Positions 22,720 to 64,000 of a stretch of 64,000 nucleotides of DNA are shown here, one piece after another (the first letter of the stretch is position 1; each line of letters opens with the position of its first letter). The stretch is from Spongiivirga citrea (GTDB taxonomy: Bacteria > Bacteroidota > Bacteroidia > Flavobacteriales > Flavobacteriaceae), in assembly GCF_010671565.1 (NCBI RefSeq), contig NZ_JAABOQ010000003.1:434001-498000 (forward strand), given 5' to 3'. The position numbers were made by a program, and so were the translations under genes. The notes beneath the pieces were generated by a model, which searched no databases, was not told where the DNA came from, and saw nothing but the letters and a program-made list of their open reading frames with translations.

Positions 22720-23715
22720 ATGAGTGATTTTCCTAAAATTGCCGTATTGGGCGGTGGTAGCTGGGCTACTGCAATTGTTAAAATGCTATCAGAAAATTTA
22801 GATGAAATAGGATGGTATATGCGCAGTGTTTATGCTAAAGAACATCTGATTAATGAACAGCATAATCCTAATTATTTAAGCGCCGTCGAGTTTAATACTG
22901 ATAAGCTAAAACTAAGTAATGATATTAATGAGATTGTCGCCTATGCTGATTATCTAATTTTTGCCATTCCTTCTGCGTTCTTGAATGCGGAATTGGAAAA
23001 ATTAACTGAATCATTAGATGATAAAATCATCTTTTCTGCAATTAAAGGTATTGTTCCTGAAACCAGTAAGATTGTGGGGGAACATTTTCACGATATATAC
23101 AATATCCCTTTTGAAAATATTGGGGTTATTACTGGACCTTGTCATGCAGAGGAGGTGGCTTTAGAGCGTTTATCTTACTTAACGATTGCTTGTGATGACG
23201 AGAAAAAAGCAAAAATTATTGCAAATGCTCTAGCAAGTAAATACATTAAAACCAAAGTAACTGAAGATATTATCGGTACAGAATATGCTGCTGTTTTAAA
23301 GAATATATATGCCATTGCCGCAGGGATTGCTCATGGTTTGGGCTATGGCGATAATTTTCAAAGTGTTTTAATGAGTAATGCTATAAGAGAGATGAGTCGG
23401 TTCATTAAAAAAGTGCATAAAATGAAACGAAACATTAATAACTCCGCTTATTTGGGAGACCTTTTGGTAACCGGATACTCCGTTTTTAGTAGAAACCGTT
23501 TGTTCGGTAATATGATCGGAAAAGGCTACACTGTAAAATCGGCGCAAATGGAAATGAATATGATTGCAGAAGGATATTACGCAGTAAAAAGCGCTTATAA
23601 ACTGAATCAAAAAAATGGCGCAGATACTCCAATTATTGATGCGGTAAATGCCATTTTATATCAACATAAAGAACCTAAAAAGGTGTTTAAAAAATTGTCT
23701 CAGAAGTTGGATTGA
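22720..23715 (+). CDS. gpsA: NAD(P)H-dependent glycerol-3-phosphate dehydrogenase
   Basis: Reduces dihydroxyacetone phosphate to sn-glycerol-3-phosphate, the backbone of phospholipids. The Rossmann motif is VLGGGSWATAI (about residues 9-19). The substrate/catalytic region has GPCHAEEVA (about 139) and the lysine-containing EYAAVLKNIYAIAAGIAHGLGYGDN (about 188-212). Length (331 aa) is normal. The last eleven residues, KVFKKLSQKLD, are encoded a second time at 26397-26432 next to the downstream paralogue (see that scar). The present 3' end may be a recombination product. Confidence 0.95.
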   Translation: MSDFPKIAVLGGGSWATAIVKMLSENLDEIGWYMRSVYAKEHLINEQHNPNYLSAVEFNTDKLKLSNDINEIVAYADYLIFAIPSAFLNAELEKLTESLDDKIIFSAIKGIVPETSKIVGEHFHDIYNIPFENIGVITGPCHAEEVALERLSYLTIACDDEKKAKIIANALASKYIKTKVTEDIIGTEYAAVLKNIYAIAAGIAHGLGYGDNFQSVLMSNAIREMSRFIKKVHKMKRNINNSAYLGDLLVTGYSVFSRNRLFGNMIGKGYTVKSAQMEMNMIAEGYYAVKSAYKLNQKNGADTPIIDAVNAILYQHKEPKKVFKKLSQKLD

Positions 23716-23768: not shown

Positions 23769-26270
23769 ATGCATACTACAACTAATTTAAGGGTACTGTG
23801 CATAATATTATGGCTTTCTTTTTCCCCAAGAATGAGTTCTCAAAATTCATTGCTTACAGAAGACCAAGAAAATCAATTGGTACTATCTGTTTTAGAATAT
23901 GCTGACGAGGTACCAAGCCAGCTGATTTATTTGCAAACGGATAAAGACATTTACGAAACCCAAGAGAATATTTGGTTTCATGCATTGCTTAAAAATGCGC
24001 AAAGTTTAGAATCTGATACTTCCGCTGATGTATTTTTTCTTTTATTAATTAATAGTGAGAATGAAGTAGTTACCAATGCGAAATTTTCTATAAATAATGG
24101 AGTTGCTAAGGGTAATCTTTATATTCAGGATTTCTTAAATTCGGGGGCGTATCACTTGGTAGGCTATACGAAAGAATCTATTAATCGGGATCTCCGATTT
24201 TATAAAACCATTAAGCAACTAGAAATTAAAGAAACTTTAATACCAAAAGTACTGGTATCCTTTAAAGAAGAGGCTAACGAAAATGGTCAACTCCAATTGT
24301 ATTTCGATCTCAAAACTCGATCCGGAGCTGCAGCTACCGATATTAAAATTCGGTTAAAAGGAATAACAAATCTCAAAGAGAAAATACTTACCAGAGCAAC
24401 AACAGATAGTTTAGGTAAAGCTACTCTTGTTGTTGACCCTGAAAAAGTATCTCAGCATAAAAAAGTCGTATATGAACTAATTGGGAAGAAAAACCTTAAA
24501 CAAAGAGCTCCACTTTTCCTAACGTTAGAAAATGACAAAGCACCTGAAATTAGGTTTTACCCAGAATCTGGTTCTCTATTGAATTCGTTAAATCAAAGGG
24601 TTGGATTCAAAGCAATAAAAAAAAGCGGGAAACCTACAGATTTTAAAGGTGTTTTACTAGAAGATGATCTGGTACTAGACACTATTAGCACTAACTTTTA
24701 TGGTATGGGTTCTTTTTGGTTACATCCGAAAAAAGAAAAGCGATATCGCCTTCGATCGTTAAGCAGTGACAACCATTTTTATGAGCTTCCAGTTGTTGAA
24801 AAAACAGGTTTTCTTTTTCAGTTAGACAGTATAGGTGCTAATTATATGAAGTTAGATTTCAGTACTAATGACCTATCTAATTATGGAGGAGAGATTTTTA
24901 TCAGACTACAGTCGAAAGGTTACATATACTGGATGGGAAAGGGAAAGTTAATGAAACAAAAACAGACTTTTTCTATTCCAATAGATAAAGCTCCAACGGG
25001 AATCATTGAATTGACGGTGTTTAATAAACAGCTGGAAAAACTATACACACGACTAATTTATCTGAAAGCAAATCATCATTTATATGTTCATCAACTGAAT
25101 AATTTAGAAAAGTCCTATAAGCCAAAATCGAAGGTTGTTGTGCAACTAAAGGTAAAGGATCATCATGGGTTGCCAAAGAAAGCCAAGCTAAATGTCCGAG
25201 TACTAGATCATTTATATGATAATGTAGTTGATGATCGAAATATGTCATCCTTTTTTCAACTGGAAAGTCAGTTGAAAGATCAAACTTTGAAACCAGGAAT
25301 TTACTTTAGGAATACGACTACAAAGGCTGATTCTCTAAATTTACTATTGCTAAACACAGAAAGAGATTCTTATCTATGGAGTTCTGATACCGCCAGAAAA
25401 CACGGGACATTTAATATTCAAGAAAATGTTGTTGGCAAAGTAATGGTTACATCAAAAACAGGAACTTTAATACCCAGTGGCTCTAGTGAAATTCAACTAT
25501 TTACTACTCGCGGTGTTATTCTTTTTAAAACGAATGAGAAAGGAATGTTTCGAATCACGAAAGAGGTTCTAAATCATTTTAAAGGAGAAACGCTCTTTAT
25601 AAAAACAACCACGCCCAAGGAGATTATACAAATATTGAAAAATGACAATAATATTTTTCAAAATGAGAAAATTGAATTGAGTTTACCGCAGTTTTATACT
25701 CTAAAGAATTTTGAAAAAAACAGCAGTTTGGAAGATCAGATTAGGAGTTTTAACTTGAACAGCATGAACTATCTCGACGAAGTTGTGGTTAAGGCACAAT
25801 ACACCAGTCGCAATAAAAACGCCGTTATTTACGGGGTGTTTATGGGGCGAATTTTTGACTACGTTTGTGTAGAGTATAATATATTAAACTGTACAAATCA
25901 TAAGCAAGGTTATCCACCTGTTGACGGTGAAATTTATTCTGATAACCTTGGAAACCGAAAAGTTTATTATGCTCCAGAGAAGGATAAGGAAGTAACTAGC
26001 AATAACAAGCCTAAAGATTTTGTTGCGATCAACTCTTTTTATCCTGAAAAATCATTTGAAGAAGTCATCTATAAAAACTCGGAAGACCGTCTAGATTTTG
26101 ATAATCGCAAAACCCTGTATTGGGATACCAATATAACGACAGATGATGATGGCAAAGCGACTATTACTTTCTTCACTTCAGATAATCGAGGAGTTTACAA
26201 AGGTTTTGTAGACGTGTATACCGATGATGGGTTATTTGGCGTATATGAGTTTATTATTAATGTTTATTGA
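23769..26270 (+). CDS. MG2-like secreted protein, copy A (tandem paralogue)
   Basis: A large exported protein of 833 residues with a signal peptide (MHTTTNLRVLCIILWLSFSP). The ATG at 23769 is preferred over a TTG at 23712 that would overlap gpsA. The mature N-terminus holds a macroglobulin-MG2-like segment (IYLQTDKDIYETQENIWF), and a second Ig-like domain spans about 130-240. The middle resembles Bacteroidetes proteins linking MG2 and carboxypeptidase-regulatory-like folds. Near 660-670 there is LDEVVVKA, a short match to TonB plug starts, and the end reads DNRGVYKGFVDVYTDDGLFGVYEF. There is no thioester and no beta-barrel. Copy B (26491) keeps the same architecture at about half identity. 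Function unknown; it probably acts in the periplasm or at the surface. Confidence 0.8.
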   Translation: MHTTTNLRVLCIILWLSFSPRMSSQNSLLTEDQENQLVLSVLEYADEVPSQLIYLQTDKDIYETQENIWFHALLKNAQSLESDTSADVFFLLLINSENEVVTNAKFSINNGVAKGNLYIQDFLNSGAYHLVGYTKESINRDLRFYKTIKQLEIKETLIPKVLVSFKEEANENGQLQLYFDLKTRSGAAATDIKIRLKGITNLKEKILTRATTDSLGKATLVVDPEKVSQHKKVVYELIGKKNLKQRAPLFLTLENDKAPEIRFYPESGSLLNSLNQRVGFKAIKKSGKPTDFKGVLLEDDLVLDTISTNFYGMGSFWLHPKKEKRYRLRSLSSDNHFYELPVVEKTGFLFQLDSIGANYMKLDFSTNDLSNYGGEIFIRLQSKGYIYWMGKGKLMKQKQTFSIPIDKAPTGIIELTVFNKQLEKLYTRLIYLKANHHLYVHQLNNLEKSYKPKSKVVVQLKVKDHHGLPKKAKLNVRVLDHLYDNVVDDRNMSSFFQLESQLKDQTLKPGIYFRNTTTKADSLNLLLLNTERDSYLWSSDTARKHGTFNIQENVVGKVMVTSKTGTLIPSGSSEIQLFTTRGVILFKTNEKGMFRITKEVLNHFKGETLFIKTTTPKEIIQILKNDNNIFQNEKIELSLPQFYTLKNFEKNSSLEDQIRSFNLNSMNYLDEVVVKAQYTSRNKNAVIYGVFMGRIFDYVCVEYNILNCTNHKQGYPPVDGEIYSDNLGNRKVYYAPEKDKEVTSNNKPKDFVAINSFYPEKSFEEVIYKNSEDRLDFDNRKTLYWDTNITTDDDGKATITFFTSDNRGVYKGFVDVYTDDGLFGVYEFIINVY

Positions 26271-26282
26271 ATACGTATTGAC

Positions 26283-26393
26283 TTATTGAACCAAAACCCC
26301 TCGAAGTTTCATATTTGGGATATTTTGCAATGCTCTTACGTTGATGGTATTTTTTCTAAAAAGGAATTTCTTGTCATATAGCATTCCATCGGC
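26283..26393 (-). pseudogene. 3' fragment of a relative of the 131-aa gene at 29009
   Basis: Thirty-six codons plus stop encode a C-terminus matching the live protein at 29009-29404 in 32 of 36 positions (changes K/Q, T/N, Q/R and G/D). Thirteen further codons and the stop differ only synonymously. The fragment lies tail to tail after copy A exactly as the live gene lies after copy B. It has no 5' part: the coding sequence stops at the junction with the gpsA fragment at about 26394. It was clearly under protein-level selection until it was truncated. Confidence 0.85.
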
Positions 26394-26396
26394 GAA

Positions 26397-26432
26397 AAGG
26401 TGTTTAAAAAGCTATCTCAAAAATTGGATTAA
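26397..26432 (+). pseudogene. duplicate of the gpsA 3' end
   Basis: Twelve codons reading KVFKKLSQKLD-stop, identical in protein to the end of gpsA (23680-23715). They differ at six bases, all synonymous or in the stop codon (TAA for TGA). Shared sequence begins at aaaaggtg (26395), abutting the fragment of the 131-aa gene. The distance from this stop to the copy B start is close to that from the real gpsA stop to copy A (58 against 53 bases), so the flank moved together with the paralogue. Confidence 0.85.
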
Positions 26433-26490
26433 AATTAACAGCTCCTCAAGCTGTTGTTTAGTATTTTTAGAATGCTAAACTGTGTTTTAT

Positions 26491-29007
26491 ATGATGACCC
26501 CGAATACTATATTCAAAAAATATTTGAGGCCTTTCGTATTTTTTTGTTTAGTAGCTATTCCTTTTTTAGCACAGACGCAGATTCATCTCACTGAAAAAGA
26601 AGAACAAACTCTTATTATACCTCAGGTAAAACACAATCAAACTATTCCTGAACAATCTATTTATTTACAAACTGACAAAGATATTTATGAAACACAGGAG
26701 AACCTCTGGTTTAATGCAATCATAAAGAACGCTGTTACACTCAAAAATGATACTAATTCTTCTATTTTTTATTTGTCAATTATTGATGAAAATAAAAAAC
26801 CAATTATAAATGCTAAATATCCAATTATAGATGGTCAGGTTGATGGATATCTTTTTTTAAAAGAGGTTTTACAACCAGGATTTTACAATTTGGTAGGTTA
26901 CACAAACCGTTCAATTAGGGATCGCTCCCAACTTTATCATACCACTAAACAAATAGAAATAAAAGAGCATATCATTCCTAAAATTTTATACAAGCAACAA
27001 AATGCTTTGGTTATTAATAATCAAACACAACTTGACCTAGAGGTGTTGCCTCGAACTGGGTTGTCTACCAAAAATATTAAGGTGCGATTGATTGGTACAA
27101 AAGGAAATAAAAGCACTATACTAGGAAAAGGTAATACCGATCAACAAGGAAATGTGAGGTTGCTGGTAAATCATGACGAAGCGATACCCTTCTCAAACTA
27201 TTTTTTAGAGACAATAGCGAAGCAGCAAGAAAAGCAGGTCGATCCGTTTCAATTAAATCTTGGGCGGGAATCCAAAAAAACGATTAAGTTTTATACCCAA
27301 AACAGTTCGCTGATCGATGGAATTTCGCAAACAATTTCATTTCAATGTCATGACCGAAATGGCGTTCCCACAAGTCTAGAAGCAATATTATTGGAAAATA
27401 ATAAAGTAATTGATACGCTAAAAACAAACCTAAACGGATTGGGTCAATTTCAAATCACCCCAAAATTAAAAACACAATATCAACTGCTACCACGTGGAGA
27501 AGAAATACTTGATTACCAATTTCCCAAAATCGAAAGTAAAGGGGCCATTTTTACTGTTGAGAATGTAAGTAGGCAATTATTAGAATTACAATTTAAAACG
27601 AACTCCTTGAAAGAGTACAAGGGAAACTTTTATGTTCGATTGCAATCCCGCGGTTTTATTCATTATATAGGAAAGGGAGAATTTATTAAAACAAATCAAC
27701 GCATTAAAATACCCATTGGCAAACTTCCCTCTGGTATCGCAGAAGTATCTATTGTAGACAAAGAAATGAATTCATTATTTAATAGATTAGTTTATGTACA
27801 CCCAGAACAAAAGCTTTATATAACTCAACAAAATAGTTTAGAAAATCAGTATTACACAAAATCAAAAGTGCGATTACAATTAAGAGTTACTGATCAACGT
27901 AATCGCCCTTTAAGTGCAAAGTTTAACATTCGCGTATATGATCATCTCTATAATGTCGACCATATAGATCGAAATATTGCTTCATTCTATCATCTGGAAA
28001 GTGTTTTAAATGAACCTATTTACAACGCAGGAACTTATTTTTTACCTGAAGCAAACAACGATTTAATAGTTCAACTGGTGAATACCATTCCTGCCAAAAA
28101 TTACATTTGGTCAATTAACGAACAAGCTACGAACCATGGTAAATTCCACATTCAAGAAACTGTGGTGGGGAAGCTTATGAAACGTACCGAAAATGGAACT
28201 TTGGTTCCTGTCGCGTTTGGCGAAGTTCAATTATTTAGCCCAAAAGCTATAACTGCTTTAAATACTGACGAAACGGGCATGTTTAAAATTCCTAAAGAAC
28301 TCCTCATTTCGTCACGTGGGGAACGACTTTTTGTAAAAAGCCTTCAACCAAATACTATTATTGAACTATTAAAAAACGACAATACTATTTTCAATGATGA
28401 AGCGGTGAGAAATCAATTTCCAATTCAGCTACAATATGCGTCTAAAAACGAATCAACAGAAATGCTCGAAGATCAAATACGTTATTTTGATATTAATAGC
28501 ATTAATTTTCTGGATGAAGTCGTGGTTAAAGCCAAGCATAAAAATAGGGTAAAGGATGAGCAAGATATTGTTGAATATGTTGGAACAGGTGGGAATTACG
28601 TTTGTTATGAATATAATGTATTCAATTGTGTCAATCACAGATCAGGAAGACCTCCAGAATTTGGTAAGGTCTATAGAGATAATTATGGTAGAAGAATAGT
28701 CTTCCGAGCCTCAAAGGCAAAGAGTGTGAGTCCCAATATAAATAAACCGAAGGATTATGTTATTATTCAATCATTTTACCCTAAAAAGAATTTTAAACAA
28801 CCTCAATACATTAATCAAGAGGACGAGTTAGAATTGGATAACCGAAAAACTTTATTCTGGGAGAGCGGTATTCAAGCAGACCAAAATGGTAATATCGATC
28901 TTTCCTTTTATACCTCAGACAATAGAGGTAAATATAAAGGAATTGTCGATGTTTATACAGATGACGGACAATTCGGTGTTTATGAGTTTAGTATTAACGT
29001 ATACTAA
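26491..29007 (+). CDS. MG2-like secreted protein, copy B (tandem paralogue)
   Basis: Paralogue of the preceding gene, 838 residues from the ATG at 26491 (a GTG at 26482 is also possible). The signal peptide (FVFFCLVAIPFLAQTQ) is followed by the near-identical IYLQTDKDIYETQENLWF. Residues near 650-660 read LDEVVVKAKH, and the closing DNRGKYKGIVDVYTDDGQFGVYEF matches copy A. A Cys pair in YVCYEYNVFNCVNH is conserved in both. Overall identity by eye is about 45-50 %, much lower than expected if the scar between them marked a recent simple duplication. It is convergent with the 131-aa gene, whose stop lies one base after its own. Confidence 0.8.
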   Translation: MMTPNTIFKKYLRPFVFFCLVAIPFLAQTQIHLTEKEEQTLIIPQVKHNQTIPEQSIYLQTDKDIYETQENLWFNAIIKNAVTLKNDTNSSIFYLSIIDENKKPIINAKYPIIDGQVDGYLFLKEVLQPGFYNLVGYTNRSIRDRSQLYHTTKQIEIKEHIIPKILYKQQNALVINNQTQLDLEVLPRTGLSTKNIKVRLIGTKGNKSTILGKGNTDQQGNVRLLVNHDEAIPFSNYFLETIAKQQEKQVDPFQLNLGRESKKTIKFYTQNSSLIDGISQTISFQCHDRNGVPTSLEAILLENNKVIDTLKTNLNGLGQFQITPKLKTQYQLLPRGEEILDYQFPKIESKGAIFTVENVSRQLLELQFKTNSLKEYKGNFYVRLQSRGFIHYIGKGEFIKTNQRIKIPIGKLPSGIAEVSIVDKEMNSLFNRLVYVHPEQKLYITQQNSLENQYYTKSKVRLQLRVTDQRNRPLSAKFNIRVYDHLYNVDHIDRNIASFYHLESVLNEPIYNAGTYFLPEANNDLIVQLVNTIPAKNYIWSINEQATNHGKFHIQETVVGKLMKRTENGTLVPVAFGEVQLFSPKAITALNTDETGMFKIPKELLISSRGERLFVKSLQPNTIIELLKNDNTIFNDEAVRNQFPIQLQYASKNESTEMLEDQIRYFDINSINFLDEVVVKAKHKNRVKDEQDIVEYVGTGGNYVCYEYNVFNCVNHRSGRPPEFGKVYRDNYGRRIVFRASKAKSVSPNINKPKDYVIIQSFYPKKNFKQPQYINQEDELELDNRKTLFWESGIQADQNGNIDLSFYTSDNRGKYKGIVDVYTDDGQFGVYEFSINVY

Positions 29008-29008
29008 T

Positions 29009-29404
29009 TCATTTAACCAATACCCCTCGAAGTTTCATAGTGGGGATGTTCTGCAAAGCTTGGACATTGATGGTGTTTTTTCTGAATAAGAATTTCTTAT
29101 CATATAACATTCCACCTGCAAAAAAAGTGACTTGAAATTCATTGTTAAGTGCTAGTACTTCTTCTTGCATCAACTCGATCTTGGCGAATGACTTTCCTTC
29201 AATTCTTGGAAAGCTATGACGCATCGTTGATGTCTTTTTGTTTTCATCATAGCCTTTAGAAACTACTAAGACAGTTTCAACAGCATCAGTACGGTCATTA
29301 ATTATATAGGCATTCCAATCATTCCACTCAAACTCGGCATTGTACTCTTGCACAACGGCAACATACACATGTTTTACTTCAGGTATTTGAATGTCTTTTC
29401 TCAC
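29009..29404 (-). CDS. conserved hypothetical protein next to pheS
   Basis: A 131-residue soluble protein, beta-rich (KHVYVAVVQEYNAEFEWNDWNAYIINDRTD), with MRHSFPRIEGKSFAKIELMQEEVLALNNEFQVTFF. From memory it is conserved beside pheS in flavobacteria and often mislabelled as a PheS subunit, but it carries no aminoacyl-tRNA synthetase motif. It ends one base from copy B on the other strand and begins one base after the pheS stop, so it is probably cotranscribed with pheS. A diverged 36-codon copy of its 3' end survives at 26283-26393. Confidence 0.8.
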   Translation of the reverse strand: MRKDIQIPEVKHVYVAVVQEYNAEFEWNDWNAYIINDRTDAVETVLVVSKGYDENKKTSTMRHSFPRIEGKSFAKIELMQEEVLALNNEFQVTFFAGGMLYDKKFLFRKNTINVQALQNIPTMKLRGVLVK

Positions 29405-29405
29405 C

Positions 29406-30425
29406 TTATAAAGCCGACTTAAACTGCTCTAGAAATCGAATGTCATTTTCGCTTAGCAAACGAATATCCGGTATTTGATGAAGTAATAGGGCTATTCGAT
29501 CGATTCCCATACCGAAAGCGAAACCTGAGTATTCTTTTGAATCAATTCCGCAATTTTCTAATACTTGAGGATCTACCATACCACAGCCCATAATTTCTAA
29601 CCAACCAGTACCTTTGGTCATTTTGTAGTCAGTTTCTGTTTCCAGGCCCCAGTATACATCAACTTCTGCGCTTGGTTCTGTAAACGGGAAATATGATGGA
29701 CGTAGTCTAATTTTCGACTTGCCAAACATCTCCGTTGTAAAATATTGTAGTGTCTGCTTAAGATCAGCAAATGATACATCCTTGTCTATGTACAATCCTT
29801 CTACTTGATGAAAAAAGCAGTGTGAACGCGCTGAAATAGCTTCATTACGATATACACGTCCTGGTGAGATTGTACGAATAGGTGGTTTGTTATTTTCCAT
29901 ATAACGCACCTGAACAGATGAGGTGTGGGTACGCAATAAAATATCTGGATTAGTTTGCACGAAAAACGTGTCCTGCATATCTCTAGCCGGGTGATATTCC
30001 GGCAAGTTAAGTGCAGTAAAGTTATGCCAGTCATCTTCGATTTCTGGCCCTTCAGATACGTTGAATCCAATACGAGAAAAGATATCGATGATCTGATTTT
30101 TTACGATAGAAATTGGATGGCGTGCTCCGATCTCAATAGGATTTCCAGGTCGGGTTAAATCACCATATAAACCAGATTGCTCGGTAGAAGTTTCTAACGA
30201 AGATTTCGCCTCTTCAATCTTATTTTTTACAAGATTCTGTAGCGTATTCACTACCTGGCCAAAATCTTTTTTCTGGTCAGCCGGAACGTTTTTAAATTCA
30301 GTAAAAAAGTCTTTGATTAATCCCTTTCTACCCAAATATTTTATACGGAATTCTTCTACTTTTTCCTTGGTGTCAGCAGTAAACTGTTCAACCTCTGCAA
30401 TATGTTCTTTAATCGTATCGAGCAT
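29406..30425 (-). CDS. pheS: phenylalanine--tRNA ligase, alpha subunit
   Basis: The catalytic alpha subunit of the heterotetrameric PheRS. The N-terminal coiled coil (about 1-85) binds tRNA. The class II motifs follow: motif 2 in RVYRNEAISARSHCFFHQVEGLYID and motif 3 in GFAFGMGIDRIALLLHQIPDIR near the C-terminus. The start at 30425 (MLDTIKEHIAEVE) gives the usual 339 residues; eight extra upstream residues in the longer frame are not family-like. The beta subunit gene is not in the window. Confidence 0.95.
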   Translation of the reverse strand: MLDTIKEHIAEVEQFTADTKEKVEEFRIKYLGRKGLIKDFFTEFKNVPADQKKDFGQVVNTLQNLVKNKIEEAKSSLETSTEQSGLYGDLTRPGNPIEIGARHPISIVKNQIIDIFSRIGFNVSEGPEIEDDWHNFTALNLPEYHPARDMQDTFFVQTNPDILLRTHTSSVQVRYMENNKPPIRTISPGRVYRNEAISARSHCFFHQVEGLYIDKDVSFADLKQTLQYFTTEMFGKSKIRLRPSYFPFTEPSAEVDVYWGLETETDYKMTKGTGWLEIMGCGMVDPQVLENCGIDSKEYSGFAFGMGIDRIALLLHQIPDIRLLSENDIRFLEQFKSAL

Positions 30426-50448: not shown

Positions 50449-50952
50449 ATGTTGCTAAAGATTTTGTCAATACTCAATGACATGATTAAAAAGAAACATC
50501 ATGTGGTATCTTATGCTTATACCCTACAGGAAAACGATCCTGCCAAATATGTATTTAAACAAGCATGTAAAGATGGTAAAATAGCATTGAGTTATGAGAG
50601 CGGAAAACTAGGTAATGTTCAAAAAGAAGCGGTTATCTTGATTACTGATGGTGTGTATCGCATGCTAGAAGAATTGACGATGTATCCGAAATCTGTTGAA
50701 AGTGCAAGTACTAGTTTTGCGAGTCTGAATAACCAAAAATATATTGATGCCGATGTTAGTGGCATATTTTATAGTGATCTTAAAGCTGGTGATGCCGTAA
50801 AAAAAGGTGATCGAGTGGGTTATATTACAGATGAATTTGGAAAAGTCATTTCTAGACAAAAAGCGCCAGTTTCGGGAATCGTTTTATACAAAATAGCAAT
50901 ACCACCAGTTAATATTGATGATACAATTATGTGTATTAGCTATAAAGAATGA
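50449..50952 (+). pseudogene. 5'-truncated succinylglutamate desuccinylase/aspartoacylase-like gene
   Basis: The 167-residue frame matches only the C-terminal part of the M14-type AstE/AspA family: YESGKLGNVQKEAVILITDGVYRMLEELTMY (end of the catalytic domain), then the barrel-like domain with AGDAVKKGDRVGYITDEFGKVI, APVSGIVLYKI and PPVNIDDTIMCI. The zinc ligands and most of the catalytic core are missing, and a stop codon stands directly before the ATG. It is therefore a decayed remnant, though still in frame. A second, shorter copy of the C-terminal domain lies at 55335. Confidence 0.72.
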
Positions 50953-52797: not shown

Positions 52798-53478
52798 TTA
52801 AATCAATTCCTTTTCTCTCGCCACTTTTAGTAATTCTTCATTGTCGCTTTTTTCAATTCCTAAAAGTGTTTTGATGTTATTTTTGCGCTTTTCTATAGCA
52901 CTAAGTGAGAGGTTAATATATTGAGGAAGATTTTTCGTTTTTATCCCTTTTGAAAGATAACTAAGGATTTTCAAATTAACCTCATCTAACAATTCATTGT
53001 TATGTATACGATTTCTTAAATAGCGATGTATTGTGCTACTATAATAAGTTTGATTATTTAAAATAGTTTTTAATGCCGTTTGAAGCATTTCGGGGGTTAC
53101 ATCACTCTTAACAAGCAAACCGTCTGGGTTAATCTTCTTTATCAATCTGTTTATTAACAAGTTGTCACTTAAAGAAGTAATAAAAACAATTCTGCTGTCC
53201 GGAAACCAGTGTTTTGCCCTAAATGCCACGTCCTCACCAGATGTTATTTTCCCATCTACCGACTCTGGTATTCTAATATCGATAAGAAGAAGATTATATG
53301 GAGATAGTTTCTCTGCTTGGATAAGCTTTTTCCTTGCATTATCACCATTAGTCGCTACATCAATATGGAGCTCATAATCTTCCGAAAAAGTATCATTTAA
53401 TATTCTTTTATAACTATCTACGACTAGGGGGTGGTCTTCTGTTATTAATACATTTATCCTGCTTTTCATTTTTTCCAC
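52798..53478 (-). CDS. LuxR/NarL-type response regulator, paralogue 1
   Basis: A 226-residue response regulator. The receiver domain has acidic residues in LITEDHP, phosphoacceptor Asp about 67 in LLLIDIRIPE and the switch Thr/Ser in IVFITSLSD. The C-terminal HTH carries LSLSAIEKRKNNIKTLLGIEKS (about 188-209), where most NarL proteins have SxxTVxxHxxxIxxKL; the AIEKRK recognition helix is a Bacteroidetes variant. No histidine kinase gene is adjacent. It shares architecture and HTH with the gene at 53622. Targets unknown. Confidence 0.88.
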   Translation of the reverse strand: MEKMKSRINVLITEDHPLVVDSYKRILNDTFSEDYELHIDVATNGDNARKKLIQAEKLSPYNLLLIDIRIPESVDGKITSGEDVAFRAKHWFPDSRIVFITSLSDNLLINRLIKKINPDGLLVKSDVTPEMLQTALKTILNNQTYYSSTIHRYLRNRIHNNELLDEVNLKILSYLSKGIKTKNLPQYINLSLSAIEKRKNNIKTLLGIEKSDNEELLKVAREKELI

Positions 53479-53621: not shown

Positions 53622-54296
53622 CTAAATAAATCCTCTGGTTCGAGCTTCTTCAATTAACTTATCGTCACCACCACTTTCAATATCAAAAAAAGCCTTTATC
53701 TTGTTTTTTCTCTTTTCAATTGCACTAAGTGATAAGTTAATATGATCTGAAAGATCTTTAGTCCTTATTCCCTTAGATATTCCGAGTAAGATCTTAAGGT
53801 TTATATCGTCTAGCAAGAATTCATTTTGAATCCGTTTTTTTAATATTTCATTTACCTTACCACAATAAAATGTCTGCTTTTGAGCCAATGCTAAAAAGCA
53901 CGCATAAAGAATATCTGGTGTAAGTCCAGTTTTAATAATTAATGATTCCGGGTCAATATTTTTAATCGTTTCTCTAATAGTAGGACCATCATTTATAGAA
54001 CTGAGTATGACTAGTCTTGCACTAGGAAATGATTCTTTTAATTTAGAAACGAACTCAAAACCTGTGGTTAAAACTTCTGTTTTTTCAGATGGAAAGTGAA
54101 TATCGCTAATAATTAGATCATACGGTTTCGAATTCTTTCTACTTGCTATACAATCGAGTCCTTCTTTTATGGAGTAAGCTGCATTTATTGAAACTTTTGG
54201 GTTTCCCCTAAGTCTAAATGCTTTTATAACTTTCTTACAAGCATCAACACACATGGGGAGACTATCCACTATTAAAACACATATTTCTCTCTTCAT
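53622..54296 (-). CDS. LuxR/NarL-type response regulator, paralogue 2
   Basis: A 224-residue paralogue of the regulator at 52798. Phosphoacceptor Asp about 65 in LIISDIHFPS, switch Ser in LVILSSIND, HTH LSLSAIEKRKNKIKAFFDIESG. The acidic pocket has VDS instead of the usual two adjacent acids, so Mg2+ binding and phosphorylation may be weaker than in paralogue 1. The two genes are 143 bases apart in the same direction; both lack a neighbouring kinase. Confidence 0.87.
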   Translation of the reverse strand: MKREICVLIVDSLPMCVDACKKVIKAFRLRGNPKVSINAAYSIKEGLDCIASRKNSKPYDLIISDIHFPSEKTEVLTTGFEFVSKLKESFPSARLVILSSINDGPTIRETIKNIDPESLIIKTGLTPDILYACFLALAQKQTFYCGKVNEILKKRIQNEFLLDDINLKILLGISKGIRTKDLSDHINLSLSAIEKRKNKIKAFFDIESGGDDKLIEEARTRGFI

Positions 54297-55038: not shown

Positions 55039-55335
55039 ATGAAATCAAGTTTTTCCGATATACTTAAAAGCGCACCAACAGTACTAGTCGATTTTTATGC
55101 TGATTGGTGTGGACCTTGTAAATCTTTAGCTCCTATTTTAAAACAAGTAAAAGATGAGCTTGGTGATGATATTAAAATTGTAAAAATTGATGTTGATAAA
55201 AATCAGCCGTTAGCTGCTACTTATCAAGTTCAAGGTGTGCCTACACTGATACTTTATAAAGATGGAAAGCAAGTATGGCGCCAGTCAGGGGTTATCCCAA
55301 AACATCAATTAATTCAGATTATTAAAGGAAATTAA
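55039..55335 (+). CDS. trxA: thioredoxin
   Basis: A 98-residue cytoplasmic thioredoxin with the redox centre DWCGPCKSL (Cys about 24 and 27), the cis-Pro loop GVPTLILYKDG and the conserved Asp in LVDFYADW. It is shorter than the 105-110 residues usual for housekeeping thioredoxin, with a trimmed N-terminus. Its TAA overlaps the ATG of the following fragment by one base. Given the accessory surroundings, a second housekeeping copy elsewhere is likely. Confidence 0.92.
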   Translation: MKSSFSDILKSAPTVLVDFYADWCGPCKSLAPILKQVKDELGDDIKIVKIDVDKNQPLAATYQVQGVPTLILYKDGKQVWRQSGVIPKHQLIQIIKGN

Positions 55336-55571
55336 TGATAATTCTTATTTCGCCCGAAGAAACGGGCGAGAATGAAATTGATGTGTTACATCAAATTTTT
55401 GAAGCTGGAGACATCGTTAAAAAAGGAGAAAAGGTTGGTTATATTACTGATGAATTTGAAGAGACCATCTCGGAATTCAAAGCCCGAGTTTCTAGAACTA
55501 TTTTATATAAAATAGCCACACCCCCGGCTAATATTGATGATACACTCATATGTATTCGCTATAAAGAATAA
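55335..55571 (+). pseudogene. C-terminal fragment of an aspartoacylase/succinylglutamate desuccinylase-like gene
   Basis: A 78-residue frame whose last 58 residues (FEAGDIVKKGEKVGYITDEFEETI, ISxFKAxVSRTILYKIATPPANIDDTLICI) align along their whole length with the end of the fragment at 50449-50952, at roughly two-thirds identity. Only the C-terminal barrel-sandwich domain remains; the first 20 residues show no match. The one-base TAATG overlap with thioredoxin would couple its translation, so it may still be made as a small protein, but it cannot be a peptidase. Confidence 0.68.
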
Positions 55572-56843: not shown

Positions 56844-57506
56844 TTACACCATTCTCCCGTCTAATAAGTTGATCGTTCGGGTACCGTACTCAGCATTTTT
56901 TTCTGAATGTGTTACTTGAATAATCGTCACACCTTCCTCATTTAATTCCTTAAAAATTCCCATAATCTCTTCCCCTTGACTTGAGTTTAAGTTCCCGGTA
57001 GGTTCATCAGCCAAAATAAGTTTAGGGTTCGATATCAATGCTCTTGCAATACCAACCAGCTGTTGTTGCCCTCCGCTTAATTGAGTTGGAAAAAGGTCTT
57101 TTTTACCAACGATGTTGAATCGGTCTAACATATCAGCCACCATAGCTTTGCGTTCAGAACCTTTTAGTTTTTTATAAAGCAACGGCATTTCTAGGTTTTC
57201 CTGCACAGTCAATTCATCTAGTAAATGATAGGATTGAAATACAAAGCCAATGTATCTTTTGTAGAGATCAGCTCGATGCTTTTCTTTTAGATCATGAACT
57301 GATTCATCCATAAAATTGTATTCACCTTCATTAAAACCATCAAGCATTCCTATGACATTTAGTAAAGTGGTTTTACCTGAGCCAGAAGGTCCCATAATTG
57401 ATATAAACTCCCCCTCTTCGACATTAAAATTTATGTCTTTTAACAAGAATGTTTGCTGGCCTCCTGTTTTGACCCATTTAAATATGTTGTTTAATTGTAG
57501 TAACAT
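56844..57506 (-). CDS. ABC transporter ATP-binding protein (MacB/LolD type)
   Basis: A 220-residue ATPase. Walker A GPSGSGKTTL is at about 39-48, the ABC signature LSGGQQQLVGIARAL at about 138-152, Walker B LILADEPTG with catalytic Glu at about 162, and the H-loop His in QVTHSE. It belongs to the MacB/LolD group that powers FtsX-like permeases in exporting molecules or moving lipoproteins. It is the last gene of a same-strand run with three large permeases and should energise all of them. Confidence 0.93.
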   Translation of the reverse strand: MLLQLNNIFKWVKTGGQQTFLLKDINFNVEEGEFISIMGPSGSGKTTLLNVIGMLDGFNEGEYNFMDESVHDLKEKHRADLYKRYIGFVFQSYHLLDELTVQENLEMPLLYKKLKGSERKAMVADMLDRFNIVGKKDLFPTQLSGGQQQLVGIARALISNPKLILADEPTGNLNSSQGEEIMGIFKELNEEGVTIIQVTHSEKNAEYGTRTINLLDGRMV

Positions 57507-57574: not shown

Positions 57575-59977
57575 CTATTCCGTCTTTAAATTATCAATTA
57601 CTTTATTATTTGAAGCCTTTAGGGTTTGTATAAAAATAAGCATCAAGCTAGTTCCCGCTACAATCAAAATTCCCCAAAAGAAAGCTGAAAATCCGATAGT
57701 GATTTTATACACATAATTTTGAAGCCAAAGCGTAATTATATAGTACGATAGTGGAATAGCAAATACGATTGCAAACACCATTACTACCGCAAACTCCTTA
57801 ACAAATAACTGACTAATATTACGTTTAGAAGCACCTAAGACTTTACGTACTCCTATTTCTTTTATTCGCTTTTGAATGCTGAGTGATACCAAACCAAATA
57901 CCCCGAGTAACACAATTATAAAAGCTAACACAGAAGCACTATATGACGCTTTTCGTAATTGCAATTCATTGGTATATAGCGTCGCTAAAGTTTCATCAAA
58001 AAAGTCAAACTTGAACGGTGCGTTGGGCATTAATTCTTGCCATTTTGATTTTATCATTGCCAATTGACCCTGCATATTTCCCGGTCTTAGCTTAAAAGTA
58101 AAATAACGGTAATACAGTGCTGCTTTTACATCAACATATACTTGTGGTTTTATAGGCGTATGTAAGGATTCAAAATGAATATTACCGATTACGCCTACTA
58201 CCGTAAGTGGTTCTTCTTGATTGACATTTTTTAGCTGCTTCCCGATTGCCATTTCAGGGCTTTCAAAACCTAAAGATTTTACAGCTTGCTCATTAATTAA
58301 AACAGCATCGGCATTTGGTACTCCTTTTTCAAAAACTGCTCCTGCTAATAAGGGGATTTGATATGTGTCAAGGTAATTTTCATCGATCATCATACCCTGT
58401 GATACTACTTTAGATTCAGATGATGCATCTGATCTGTACAATTGAAGTTGGAATCCGTTATTGCCATTCGGAATTTCATAGGATAGACTTGCATTCGACA
58501 CCTCAGGCAAAGTTTCAAACTCATTTCTGATTGTGATCATTTTCTTCACCCCATCTTCTGTCCAATCTCGTGGTGTAGCCGCCGAAACAAGGTATTCTTT
58601 TTGGTAGCCAAGATCTTTTTCAAAAAAGAAATCGATTTGTTTGGTGATTAAAAAAGCGGCTATTAAAACGACTAAGGCTAGCGTAAATTGAAAGCCTACA
58701 AGTAGCTTTCGTACAAAAATCGTCTTGCTTGATATTTGCAATTTTCCTTTTAAAGATTGAATGGGTTGCAGAGCAGAAAGAATAAATGCAGGATACACTC
58801 CAGCAACTAATCCAATAGTCAAGGCAATAAAAAATGGTATAGCAATAAAATAGCCCGGAAATGCGGAAAGTGGAATAATTTCTTTACCTATAACCTGCTC
58901 AAATAAACCCCCTAAAAAAGGATAAGCACCAACCGCCAAAAAAGTCGCAATGCTAACTAGTATTATTGACTCAGCTAAAAATTGAAAAACAAGTTGTTTC
59001 TTTTTTCCACCTAAGACTTTACGGATACCTATTTCTCGCATACGGTCACTTGAAAAGCTTACCGCAATGTTTATAAAATTAATAATCGCCATACCAATAA
59101 TAAACAGTCCTATAAAACCTAACGTGTAGAGCATTCGCTTTACCAACCCACTATTCTTGTTCAAATAATAATCGGTTAGTTTTACTGGGACGATGGTTAG
59201 GTTATTTCTTGTTCCTTCGGAAGCGTGGTCATTTAAAATATTTCGTAGTGGCTGTTCTAAATCTTTTGGTGTAACACTAGGTTGTAGCTCTACATAAGAC
59301 AAAAAAATGGGCAACTCCCAATTATCAAAGTCGGCGCGATCAAAAAATTGAGATGAGTTTTTTGCGATGAAAAATCCGTTATAGGCATCGTTAATGTAAG
59401 AGATTGAATTCTCATTTAAGTCAGCTAAAACTCCAGTGATTTTAAAATCTTGAAGTGCTCCTGAAAAATTTTCAATGGCAACTGTTTCACCTACTACTTG
59501 TACCTTACCAAAATATTTAATGGCTTTTTCTTCAGTTATTACTAGTGAGAATGGCTCGTTAAAAACTGTAGACGCATCGCCTTGTAGCAATTCAAAACCA
59601 AATTGATCGAGTAAAGATGGATCTCCAATCTGAATTCCTTCTCTTAACTTTGTATTTTCTTTAACAACGACTGATCGAATTCCATCCCATCTATAGTAAT
59701 TAGCAACTAAATGCGGATATGTTTCTTTTAGTATTGCAGCAGGAGGTCCTAAAGACACAAAATCAGGTCCCATATTTTGGTCTGTCCACTTACTGGTTAG
59801 TATGTATTGATTATCTGCGTTTTTAAGACTTCTATTTACATGATATTCTTGCCAAACATAAGCACCAATTAATAACACAAAAGCAATGCCTGCAAAAAGA
59901 CCTAAAATGTTAATGCATGCATATAGAGGTCTCTTTCTTAGACTCCTCCAGGCTATTTTTAGATAGTTTTTAAGCAT
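57575..59977 (-). CDS. ABC transporter permease, MacB/FtsX type (1)
   Basis: An 800-residue permease with the Bacteroidetes duplicated arrangement. The N-terminal TM (about 20-40) is followed by a MacB periplasmic core (about 45-270) and four TMs between about 285 and 450. The conserved DRMREIGIRKVLGGKKKQLVFQFLAES lies after TM2. A second periplasmic domain and a C-terminal FtsX domain follow, with KRIKEIGVRKVLGASKRNISQLF. It ends 68 bases before the ATPase gene. Substrate unknown. Confidence 0.92.
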   Translation of the reverse strand: MLKNYLKIAWRSLRKRPLYACINILGLFAGIAFVLLIGAYVWQEYHVNRSLKNADNQYILTSKWTDQNMGPDFVSLGPPAAILKETYPHLVANYYRWDGIRSVVVKENTKLREGIQIGDPSLLDQFGFELLQGDASTVFNEPFSLVITEEKAIKYFGKVQVVGETVAIENFSGALQDFKITGVLADLNENSISYINDAYNGFFIAKNSSQFFDRADFDNWELPIFLSYVELQPSVTPKDLEQPLRNILNDHASEGTRNNLTIVPVKLTDYYLNKNSGLVKRMLYTLGFIGLFIIGMAIINFINIAVSFSSDRMREIGIRKVLGGKKKQLVFQFLAESIILVSIATFLAVGAYPFLGGLFEQVIGKEIIPLSAFPGYFIAIPFFIALTIGLVAGVYPAFILSALQPIQSLKGKLQISSKTIFVRKLLVGFQFTLALVVLIAAFLITKQIDFFFEKDLGYQKEYLVSAATPRDWTEDGVKKMITIRNEFETLPEVSNASLSYEIPNGNNGFQLQLYRSDASSESKVVSQGMMIDENYLDTYQIPLLAGAVFEKGVPNADAVLINEQAVKSLGFESPEMAIGKQLKNVNQEEPLTVVGVIGNIHFESLHTPIKPQVYVDVKAALYYRYFTFKLRPGNMQGQLAMIKSKWQELMPNAPFKFDFFDETLATLYTNELQLRKASYSASVLAFIIVLLGVFGLVSLSIQKRIKEIGVRKVLGASKRNISQLFVKEFAVVMVFAIVFAIPLSYYIITLWLQNYVYKITIGFSAFFWGILIVAGTSLMLIFIQTLKASNNKVIDNLKTE

Positions 59978-60041
59978 GCTTTTTGATTTAATCTATTCTT
60001 TTCTATTTACACTTTCTTGTAATCATTTACCGTACATCATT

Positions 60042-62411
60042 TTATTCTGTTCGTAAGTTTTTTATGGGGTTAGACAAGGCGGTTGTAATACTTTGATAAC
60101 TAACTGTTGTAAGTGTAATTAAGAAAACGGTAATAGCTGCTATTGCAAACATCCACCATGAAATATTGATATGGTACGCAAATACCTGTAACCATTCATT
60201 CAAATAATACCATGATAATGGAATAGCGATTACAAGGGCAAGTAAAACCAGCTTAAAGAAATCTTTTGACAAGAGGTTTACCAAACTTATTGTGGTAGCT
60301 CCCAACACTTTTCTAATTCCTATTTCTTTGATTCTTTGCTCCGCCATAAAAGCAGACAAACCGTAAATACCCAGGCATGAAATGAAAATAGCAAGGATGG
60401 CTAACATATTAAATATCATACCCATTTTTTGTTCCCCGTTATACATGTTTTCTAAATCAGTGTCTAAGAAAGAATACGTAAATGGGAAAGCAGGGTTTAA
60501 CTCTGTATAAATATTTTCAAGAGCCTCAATACTCGCTTGGGTCTGGTTTATCGTGGTGCGTATCGCTAAAAACCGAGCGTCATTATTGCGTTGTGTCAAA
60601 ACCAGTGGTTCAATATCGTATTGCAACGGTTTAAAATGAAAGTCTTTAACAACACCTATAACTTGTGCATCGATGTCATTAAAGGCAAATTTTTCGCCAA
60701 TAATATTGTCGAGGTTTTTACCCATTAACTTCATCAACGTCTCATTGATTACAAGGTTTTTACCGTTGATGTTAAATTGATCATTGAAACCTCTCCCTGC
60801 CAATAATTCAATACCAAATAAATCTATAAATCTATCATCCATTCTTAAATCAGGAACCACCAGACCATCATTTTCATCTTTTCCTTCCCAAGATATATCA
60901 GTCGTACCCGTATCCAAGTCTGTTGGCATATTACTAAAAACTGAATAATTTTTTAAAAGCGGATTTTGCTGTAAAGTTGCCTTCAAAGCATCTTGCTTTT
61001 CACGCATTTCGCCTCTAAAAGGAATTATAATCATATTACTTTTGTCAAAGCCCAGATTCTTATCTTTAATAAAATTTAGTTGATTATAGACCACCGCCGT
61101 ACCCACTATTAAAACAGTTGAAATAACAAATTGCATAGTCACCAGGCCGTTTCTGAAAAACAAATTCCCTCCCGTTTTTTTTAGGTTGCCTTGAAGTACT
61201 TTAATCGGATTAAATCCTGATAAATATAATGCTGGATAGCTACCTGCAAAAAAGCCCGTTACTAAAACGATGACTAAAAGACCCAGCCATAAATAGCCAT
61301 CAGTAATATCAATACTCAATACTTTTCCTGAAATTTCATTAAAAAATGGTAAAGCCAATAAGACCAAGCCAACAGCAATTAGTAAGGAAATACAAGACAG
61401 CAACATAGACTCACTTAAAAACTGAAGTATTAGTTGACCTCTATGGGCGCCAATCGCTTTCCGCATACCAACTTCTTTAGCTCTTTTTGCAGAACGGGCT
61501 GTTGAAAGATTCATAAAATTGATACAGGCCACCACTAAAATGAAAAGAGCAACAATAAAAAATATATTAACATATTGAATGTTTCCGTGTCCAGCAACAT
61601 CTAACTGCAAATCCGAATATAAATGAATATCTGCTAAGGGTTGAAGTCGAAAATTAAAAATGTCATTGTCTAACCGCTCATCTGCAATAGCATTAATCTT
61701 TGCTTCTAAATCGCTTACTCCTGTATCAGAAAGCGCTACATTTTTGTTTAATTTAAAATAAGAGTAATAATCAAAATTCCCCCAAGTTTTATTTACGAAA
61801 TTTTTATTTTCCTTGGCAATGGTTGCCGTAGGAGCTATAAAATCAAATTTGAAATGTGAATTAGGCGGTAAATCTTTGAGTACACCTGTAACCTTCCAGT
61901 TTTTTGAATCATTAAATTTGATTGTTTGACCCAAAGCATCTTCTTCACCAAAATACTTTTTGGCCATAGACTCTGTCAATACTATGGTATTAGGATCTTT
62001 AAGAGCTGTACTTTTTGCCCCTCGTACCAAAGGAAAATCAAAAAAAGAAAGAAAATTATTATCAACGTACATGAAGTTTTTCTCTTCATATACAGTATCA
62101 TCCACGTTAAAAAGTACATCTTGAAATTTTGTAATTCTAACTATAGATTCAATTTCTGACAGTTCATCTCTTAGATCAGGTCCCATTCCGGCGGAAGAAA
62201 CTGCTGTCTTAAAATCTCCAGAATTGACAATAAATCGGTATGTTCTTTCAGAGTCTATATGAAATTGATCATAGCTTACTTCATTTTGTACCCATAATAA
62301 AATAAGAATACTACAGGCCATACCAGTTGATAGGCCAAGAACATTAAGAATAGAAAAAGATTTACTCTTAACAAGGTTCCTCCAAGCGATTTTGATATAG
62401 TTCTTAAACAT
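60042..62411 (-). CDS. ABC transporter permease, MacB/FtsX type (2)
   Basis: A 789-residue paralogue of the neighbouring permease, with the same two periplasmic domains and eight TMs. It has FMNLSTARSAKRAKEVGMRKAIGAHRGQLILQFLSES near 300 and EQRIKEIGIRKVLGATTISLVNLL near 690, the two coupling-helix-like motifs that meet the ATPase. It lies 64 bases upstream of permease 1 in the operon. Divergent sequence suggests a different substrate or partner subunit. Confidence 0.92.
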   Translation of the reverse strand: MFKNYIKIAWRNLVKSKSFSILNVLGLSTGMACSILILLWVQNEVSYDQFHIDSERTYRFIVNSGDFKTAVSSAGMGPDLRDELSEIESIVRITKFQDVLFNVDDTVYEEKNFMYVDNNFLSFFDFPLVRGAKSTALKDPNTIVLTESMAKKYFGEEDALGQTIKFNDSKNWKVTGVLKDLPPNSHFKFDFIAPTATIAKENKNFVNKTWGNFDYYSYFKLNKNVALSDTGVSDLEAKINAIADERLDNDIFNFRLQPLADIHLYSDLQLDVAGHGNIQYVNIFFIVALFILVVACINFMNLSTARSAKRAKEVGMRKAIGAHRGQLILQFLSESMLLSCISLLIAVGLVLLALPFFNEISGKVLSIDITDGYLWLGLLVIVLVTGFFAGSYPALYLSGFNPIKVLQGNLKKTGGNLFFRNGLVTMQFVISTVLIVGTAVVYNQLNFIKDKNLGFDKSNMIIIPFRGEMREKQDALKATLQQNPLLKNYSVFSNMPTDLDTGTTDISWEGKDENDGLVVPDLRMDDRFIDLFGIELLAGRGFNDQFNINGKNLVINETLMKLMGKNLDNIIGEKFAFNDIDAQVIGVVKDFHFKPLQYDIEPLVLTQRNNDARFLAIRTTINQTQASIEALENIYTELNPAFPFTYSFLDTDLENMYNGEQKMGMIFNMLAILAIFISCLGIYGLSAFMAEQRIKEIGIRKVLGATTISLVNLLSKDFFKLVLLALVIAIPLSWYYLNEWLQVFAYHINISWWMFAIAAITVFLITLTTVSYQSITTALSNPIKNLRTE

Positions 62412-62448
62412 TAGTTTTTTGATTTATTTATAGTGATTGATGATTTTG

Positions 62449-64000
62449 TTATTCCGCTCGTAAACTTTTCACAGGATTTGCAATTGCCGCTTTAAAAACC
62501 TGCGCTCCGACCGTAATAAATGCAATAAGAATGGCAACAAATGCGGCAGCGACAAATAATTGCCACCCTATACTAATTCGGTATGCAAAATTCTCAAGCC
62601 ATCGATTTCCTAAAAACCATGCTAACGGACTCGCAACCAACATTGCCAACATTACTAGCCTTAAAAAGTCTTTTAGTTGCATTGAGGTAATACTAAATAT
62701 TGATGCTCCCAGAACACGTCTTATTCCAACTTCCTTTTTGCGCTGTTCTGTCGTGAAAGAAGCAAGCCCAAATAAACCAATACAAGCGATGAAAATGGCA
62801 ATTAACATGAATCCATATACAACAGTTGAAGTTTGTTTTTCTGCCTTGTAATTGGTGTTAAATCGCTCATCTAAAAAAGTATATTCAAAGGGTGTATCTG
62901 GATTTACTTTGTTCCAAACACTTTCAATACTTTTAATGGTTGCTGCTAAATTTTGATCGTTTAAAGTCGCAATAAAATAGCTTGGCTGATTATCGCCAAG
63001 ACTTGCTAGGGCATAAGCGTCAATAGGTTCGTGTAGACTTTTAAAATTAAAGTCTTTTACCACACCTATAATTTCCATTTCACTTTTAATAGCCCCTCGC
63101 TCGTAAAAGACTCTTTTGCCTATCGCTGTTTCAGCTGTGTATCCTACTTTTCTGACCGCAGTTTCATTTAAGATTAATGAAAGTGAATCTACCGTATTGT
63201 TTTTAGTAAAATCACGCCCAGCTATTAAAGTGTAACCAAGCGTTTGAGTATAGTCGTCCAGTACTTGTGCATAACGCGTCCAAGTAGCATTTTCATTGGT
63301 TTGTTCTTCACCATAAAATGAGGTGTCACTTAATATTTGAATACCGGGATATGCATCTCCTGCTGTTGCAGATAGGATATTAGGATCTTTTAAAAGCTCG
63401 TTTTTTAAAGTTGAATAATTTTCTGCTGCATTTGGGTTACTGTATGGGATTAGTAATTGTCGTTCTTTTTTAAAACCCATGTCTTTGTTTTGCAAAAACT
63501 CCATTTGTTGCCATATTACACCGCCTACTAGAATTAGTGCTGCTGATATGGTAAACTGAAATACAACCAATCCTTTACGAATGTTTTTAGCAGAAATTGT
63601 GTTAATCAATTTGCCTTTTAAAACAGTTATAGGTTTAAAAGATGATAAGTAAAAGGCGGGATATAGGCCTGAAAGCAATCCTGTTATTAAGGCTAAACCT
63701 CCTATAAAAATTAAAAGACTTGGATATTGGGTAAGTACTAATTCTTTATTGGTAATGTCGTTAAAAAACGGCATGAAAAGCATAACTAGTACAATTGCAA
63801 TTACCAATGAGATTAAACATAGCAGCAACGATTCTCCTAAAAATTGAAAAACCAACGAATTTTTGTTCGCTCCTAGTACTTTTCGCATACCAACTTCTTT
63901 AGCCCTTTTTTCTGATCGAGCAGTGGACAAGTTCATGAAGTTTATGCAGGCAATAATTAGTAAAAAAGCCGCTATAGCACTAAAAATATAAATGTAGGTC
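62449..64000 (-). CDS. ABC transporter permease, MacB/FtsX type (3), 5' part outside window
   Basis: The C-terminal 517 residues of a third permease of the same family. The frame is open to the window edge, reading IYIFSAIAAFLLIIACINFMNLSTARSEKRAKEVGMRKVLGANKNSLVFQFL. The Met at 63936 is internal, by comparison with the paralogue, where the same motif lies near residue 300. A second motif, EQRKKEVGIRRVLGASIFSITSM, precedes the last TMs. It is 37 bases upstream of permease 2. Three permeases per ATPase is typical of these Bacteroidetes export clusters. Confidence 0.92.
   Translation of the reverse strand, partial: TYIYIFSAIAAFLLIIACINFMNLSTARSEKRAKEVGMRKVLGANKNSLVFQFLGESLLLCLISLVIAIVLVMLFMPFFNDITNKELVLTQYPSLLIFIGGLALITGLLSGLYPAFYLSSFKPITVLKGKLINTISAKNIRKGLVVFQFTISAALILVGGVIWQQMEFLQNKDMGFKKERQLLIPYSNPNAAENYSTLKNELLKDPNILSATAGDAYPGIQILSDTSFYGEEQTNENATWTRYAQVLDDYTQTLGYTLIAGRDFTKNNTVDSLSLILNETAVRKVGYTAETAIGKRVFYERGAIKSEMEIIGVVKDFNFKSLHEPIDAYALASLGDNQPSYFIATLNDQNLAATIKSIESVWNKVNPDTPFEYTFLDERFNTNYKAEKQTSTVVYGFMLIAIFIACIGLFGLASFTTEQRKKEVGIRRVLGASIFSITSMQLKDFLRLVMLAMLVASPLAWFLGNRWLENFAYRISIGWQLFVAAAFVAILIAFITVGAQVFKAAIANPVKSLRAE

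Follow-up and report, generated by a model that had tools for sequence, protein, structure and literature searches.

A fused pair of gene tails between two divergent MG2-like genes of Spongiivirga citrea suggests import of a second allele

The analyzed window, 64,000 nucleotides of a contig belonging to a 4.15-Mb Flavobacteriaceae genome, contains two tandem MG2-like genes separated by a scar at 26283-26432, in which the 3' end of a second gene for a 131-aa protein, in reverse orientation, is joined to a second gpsA 3' end. Comparison with the intact genes at the same locus shows that both tail versions diverged under protein-level constraint in two lineages before they were fused, and that the fusion is late relative to the time at which the two source lineages separated. 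We consider it likely that a single import from a close, unsampled relative produced the locus, with homologous exchange in an intact flank and an illegitimate join at a run of four adenines. The transfer, its direction, its entry route and the homologous-plus-illegitimate mechanism are what we infer from this arrangement.

Results

Organization of the locus and composition of the scar

The gene order in the window is gpsA, MG2-like copy A, scar, MG2-like copy B and, on the reverse strand, the 131-aa gene and pheS. The gpsA gene (22720-23715, forward) encodes an intact NAD-dependent glycerol-3-phosphate dehydrogenase (Pfam PF01210/PF07479), 81-83% identical in amino acids to its best relatives. 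Copy A (23769-26270, forward) and copy B (26491-29007, forward) encode intact proteins of 833 and 838 aa, respectively, each with a signal-peptide-like start; for copy A we take the ATG at 23769, and the TTG at 23712 chosen by the ORF caller overlaps the gpsA stop. The 131-aa gene (29009-29404, reverse) is intact and conserved in Flavobacteriaceae, and its protein gave no match in Pfam and NCBIfam searches. In relatives it often adjoins pheS, found here at 29406-30425 (reverse; PF01409). Neither gpsA nor the 131-aa gene has a second full copy in the genome, and the arrangement occurs at one locus only.

The first part of the scar (26283-26396, reverse) corresponds to 37 codons plus a TAA stop of the 131-aa gene. 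Over these 38 codons, 93 of 114 nucleotides are identical to the intact copy, with 15 codons changed synonymously only and four with a replacement. The preliminary description had recognized this match but cut it two codons short; its counts of 13 synonymous-only and four replacement codons are reproduced when the last 36 codons, stop included, are compared, the other 19 being identical. The second part (26397-26432, forward) comprises 11 codons plus a TAA stop, and its native counterpart is the last 36 nt of gpsA. Here 30 of 36 nucleotides are identical and, as described before, the six base changes leave the protein unaltered; one of them makes the stop TAA instead of TGA. There are no indels across the 150 bp. 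Both matches far exceed chance: searched in its own genome, the 131-aa tail has an E-value of 1.2e-15, and the local alignment scores of 74 for the 131-aa end and 26 for the gpsA end compare with shuffle maxima of 15 and 18. The 131-aa fragment in the scar is not a gene, since it lacks a start codon and its frame closes just upstream.

At the joint, only the AAAA at 26395-26398 (forward) is common to both partners, and the flanks are otherwise unrelated. A longer microhomology, aaaaggtg, had been proposed, but this is gpsA sequence; the intact 131-aa gene has aaaaaaagtg at the corresponding site. Repeat-mediated tandem duplication would call for repeats of at least tens of bases at the duplication ends, and these are absent. 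The joint, with few common bases and no extended homology, has the form expected of one of the two junctions in a product of homology-facilitated illegitimate recombination. Differences in the 131-aa fragment extend all the way to the joint (26389, 26391 and 26394).

Two adjacent hairpins follow the gpsA tail and precede copy B (26437-26480, forward; -17.1 kcal/mol, z -3.9). The first occupies the position of a gpsA terminator and may act as one. Only a weak hairpin precedes copy A, whereas the pair just before copy B is strong and back-to-back.

Other paralogous or similar sequences were observed elsewhere in the window. Two short ORFs (50449-50952 and 55335-55571) have a common 57-codon end (75% nucleotide identity, pS 0.51, pN 0.18) and are possibly two remnants of related genes; the former has a weak match to the C-terminal part of DoeB-type deacylases, far below cut-off (E 0.003). 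Response regulator-like paralogues with a helix-turn-helix end are adjacent at 52798-53478 and 53622-54296, and three consecutive MacB/FtsX-type permease-like paralogues occupy 57575-63936, adjoined by an ABC ATPase at 56844-57506.

The tails diverged as functional sequences

The changes in the scar are strongly biased toward synonymous positions. Across both parts, 20 of 24 changed codons are synonymous, one stop-codon change per part being counted among these, and not spread at random over codon positions, the outcome that the preliminary description had named as contrary to its reading. When we mutated the intact tails neutrally to the same number of differences, with transition bias from 1 to 8, the mean was 17-19 replacement codons versus the four observed, and none of 4000 runs reached four or fewer. 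Letting half of the differences arise as drift in dead DNA gave four or fewer replacements in 1.1% of runs; with a quarter, the simulations are compatible with the observed pattern. Pairs of functional relatives at similar nucleotide distance have on average 6.3 replacement codons, so that the scar, with four, shows no sign of later drift. The dN/dS estimate proposed earlier points the same way (dS about 1.4-1.7, dN 0.05), with synonymous divergence near saturation. The tails are short, and the error is accordingly wide.

Comparison with relatives gave a consistent result. Averaged over 69 relatives, the scar is identical at 65.3 of 114 nucleotides and the intact 131-aa gene at 65.4. In the phylogeny, the scar and native 131-aa ends are sisters (support 100/96) on branches of 0.11 and 0.13, a divergence about that between species of one genus in the same tree. 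Decaying DNA should lack codon bias and lie further from relatives than the intact gene does; the scar does neither. Given the synonymous bias, the equality of relative rates and the sister position on equal branches, nearly all of the tail divergence accumulated in different genomes, with both versions still functional. The earlier claim that the fragments diverged as functional orthologues rather than as dead DNA is thus borne out. Gene conversion keeping the scar similar to the native genes was also considered and rejected, since it would yield no synonymous bias.

The MG2-like pair and its slot

For copy A, the MG2 domain match is below the Pfam cut-off (E 4e-4). Copies A and B group together as closest known relatives (support 100/99), yet they are only 42% identical in amino acids, with silent sites saturated. 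The longest exact runs inside the repeated unit are today 11 bp in MG2, 18 bp in the 131-aa tail and 14 bp in the gpsA tail. The two genes are positioned alike: they begin 53 bp (A) and 58 bp (B) past gpsA stops and end 12 and 1 bp before 131-aa stops. Such tight placement, with a gpsA end on one side and a 131-aa end on the other, is as would be expected for two alleles of one slot.

A Kordia pair (two genomes) provides a calibration, with the nearest MG2 proteins 59% identical and the 131-aa protein 84%. Fast evolution of MG2 is therefore usual, as far as this single calibration goes. Under the same calibration, the A/B divergence exceeds that predicted from the tails; the MG2 alleles may thus have a separate history, perhaps with earlier exchange. 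MG2 homologues in other genera are at most 35% identical in amino acids and are located outside the gpsA/131-aa slot.

Many Flavobacteriaceae have gpsA and the 131-aa gene in convergent orientation, separated by only a few to about 40 bp. In others, unrelated genes fill the slot, for example glpD-like and glpK-like genes in locus L062; in Aquimarina, gpsA is at another location. MG2 was not found in the slot of any examined relative with gpsA and the 131-aa gene linked, nor were duplicated tails above chance found in other loci with an occupied slot. The contents, mutually unrelated, vary by genus (loci L062, L065, L070, L072, L073, L076, L115, L126, L160 and L165) and, named by eye from translations, include a decarboxylase-like gene (L065) and a PEP carboxykinase-like gene (L073). 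The slot thus looks as if it were a favored insertion site. Going further, lineages might keep exchanging and stacking unrelated or highly divergent surface-protein genes there, with MG2 being replaced rather than inherited. We think this is probably not the case; if true, such exchange would account for MG2 copies far more divergent than their flanks.

Searches for a donor and for means of entry

We found no donor of MG2 copy B among GTDB genome contigs, where the best gpsA matches (82-83%) are in Aquimarina and relatives. The scar DNA likewise found no donor in 395 relatives, the best outside match being 75% (genome G165). In these searches, the genus is represented by this genome alone. Codon use and GC content do not differ between copies A and B, and neither is marked as foreign.

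The genome lacks Ku, and Ku-dependent end joining at the joint is accordingly rejected; it does have homologues of ComEC and DprA. This combination fits transformation and a microhomology join, and is compatible with competence without proving it. Natural transformation is documented within the family in two reports on Riemerella (PMC8459023, PMC7965970). Flavobacterium johnsoniae is described as non-competent under the conditions tried.

Discussion

Import of a divergent gpsA-MG2-131 segment is the simplest account of the locus because the tails evolved apart as working orthologues, each version in its own genome. The preliminary description had already favored import, and on this point the functional divergence of the tails supports it; the microhomology that it invoked is shorter than stated, at 4 bp. 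The events might have run as follows. Two related bacteria would each have carried one MG2-like gene between convergent gpsA and 131-aa genes, in the order gpsA, MG2, 131-aa, pheS, and a linear fragment of one genome would have entered the other. With copy A as the foreign one, homologous recombination would have occurred at one end, inside gpsA or upstream; with copy B as the foreign one, it would have occurred within the 131-aa gene or beyond, on the pheS side. The other end would have been joined illegitimately at the 4-bp A run, so that a site 114 nt before the end of the 131-aa gene met one 36 nt before the end of gpsA. Exchange at the homologous end would repair the broken neighbor, leaving gpsA and the 131-aa gene whole, and the product would be two divergent MG2 alleles in tandem with the double-tail scar between them. 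Both genes are indeed intact, as homologous exchange in the flank predicts. The crossover lay most likely outside the repeated unit, since the exact runs inside it are so short, while exchange in a flank (gpsA or upstream; the 131-aa gene or further out) could draw on long stretches of homology.

The same final order, with both scar parts coming from the donor, could have arisen if a relative's gpsA-tail/MG2/131-tail segment had closed on itself at the AAAA and this circle had been integrated through one crossover. In an E. coli conjugation study directed at homology-facilitated illegitimate recombination, single-crossover duplications in fact made up the majority of recombinants, spanning 109-950 bp in the sequenced clones (PMC3240628). 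Such a crossover would need to fall inside the unit, where the exact runs are poor substrates for homologous recombination. We regard a donor circle as unlikely, and one-ended homology with an illegitimate join is favored over it only by the length of homology available.

A two-step history is somewhat less probable still: tandem duplication of the gpsA-tail/MG2/131-tail unit within one lineage, followed by replacement of one copy with a relative's allele through homologous recombination. Each step is common, and the MG2 and tail differences would result as observed, but the differences continue up to the joint, and the second exchange would have had to end almost exactly there. An ancient duplication within the lineage, with the MG2 copies and the scar diverging since in one genome, would suit the fact that A and B are nearest relatives and very divergent. 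A dead scar should, however, have accumulated replacements, indels and a longer branch, none of which is seen, and even half of its differences arising by drift would seldom leave so few replacement codons. The substitution pattern largely refutes this scenario, which we hold to be very improbable, and tandem duplication followed by decay within the lineage is rejected. Lastly, a chimeric contig uniting two strains, by misassembly or contamination, could put two divergent alleles side by side, but we give this almost no credence, as the 4 bp common at the joint are too short for an assembler overlap, the assembly lacks another full copy of gpsA or of the 131-aa gene, and contamination is 0.5%.

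Under the favored import by one-ended homology, the scar is a natural record of a second, divergent allele added beside the resident one. The codon pattern within 150 bp can tell import from duplication with no donor genome needed, and the same test could be automated for other tandem paralogues. A literature search returned no direct precedent for natural xenologous tandem scars, which is weak evidence. The process itself is already known, and the scar would be a natural, well-preserved example of it: homology-facilitated illegitimate recombination has been described in S. pneumoniae, A. baylyi, P. stutzeri and E. coli conjugation (PMC3240628). As in those systems, the locus would combine one homologous end with one illegitimate join, adding DNA beside a homologous gene; they are, however, mainly laboratory crosses with markers, whereas here the process would have to be read from a scar that formed in nature and separates divergent alleles. 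The locus also resembles the merodiploids formed by transformation in S. pneumoniae, in which import leaves a tandem duplication whose copies can differ, but these involve longer repeats and unequal crossing-over between chromatids instead of four common bases at a joint (PMC3784515). Finally, partial duplications produced in a single crossover by truncated circular molecules resemble the locus in how the parts are ordered around a truncated joint, although they require homology inside the unit, which is poor at this locus (PMC3240628).
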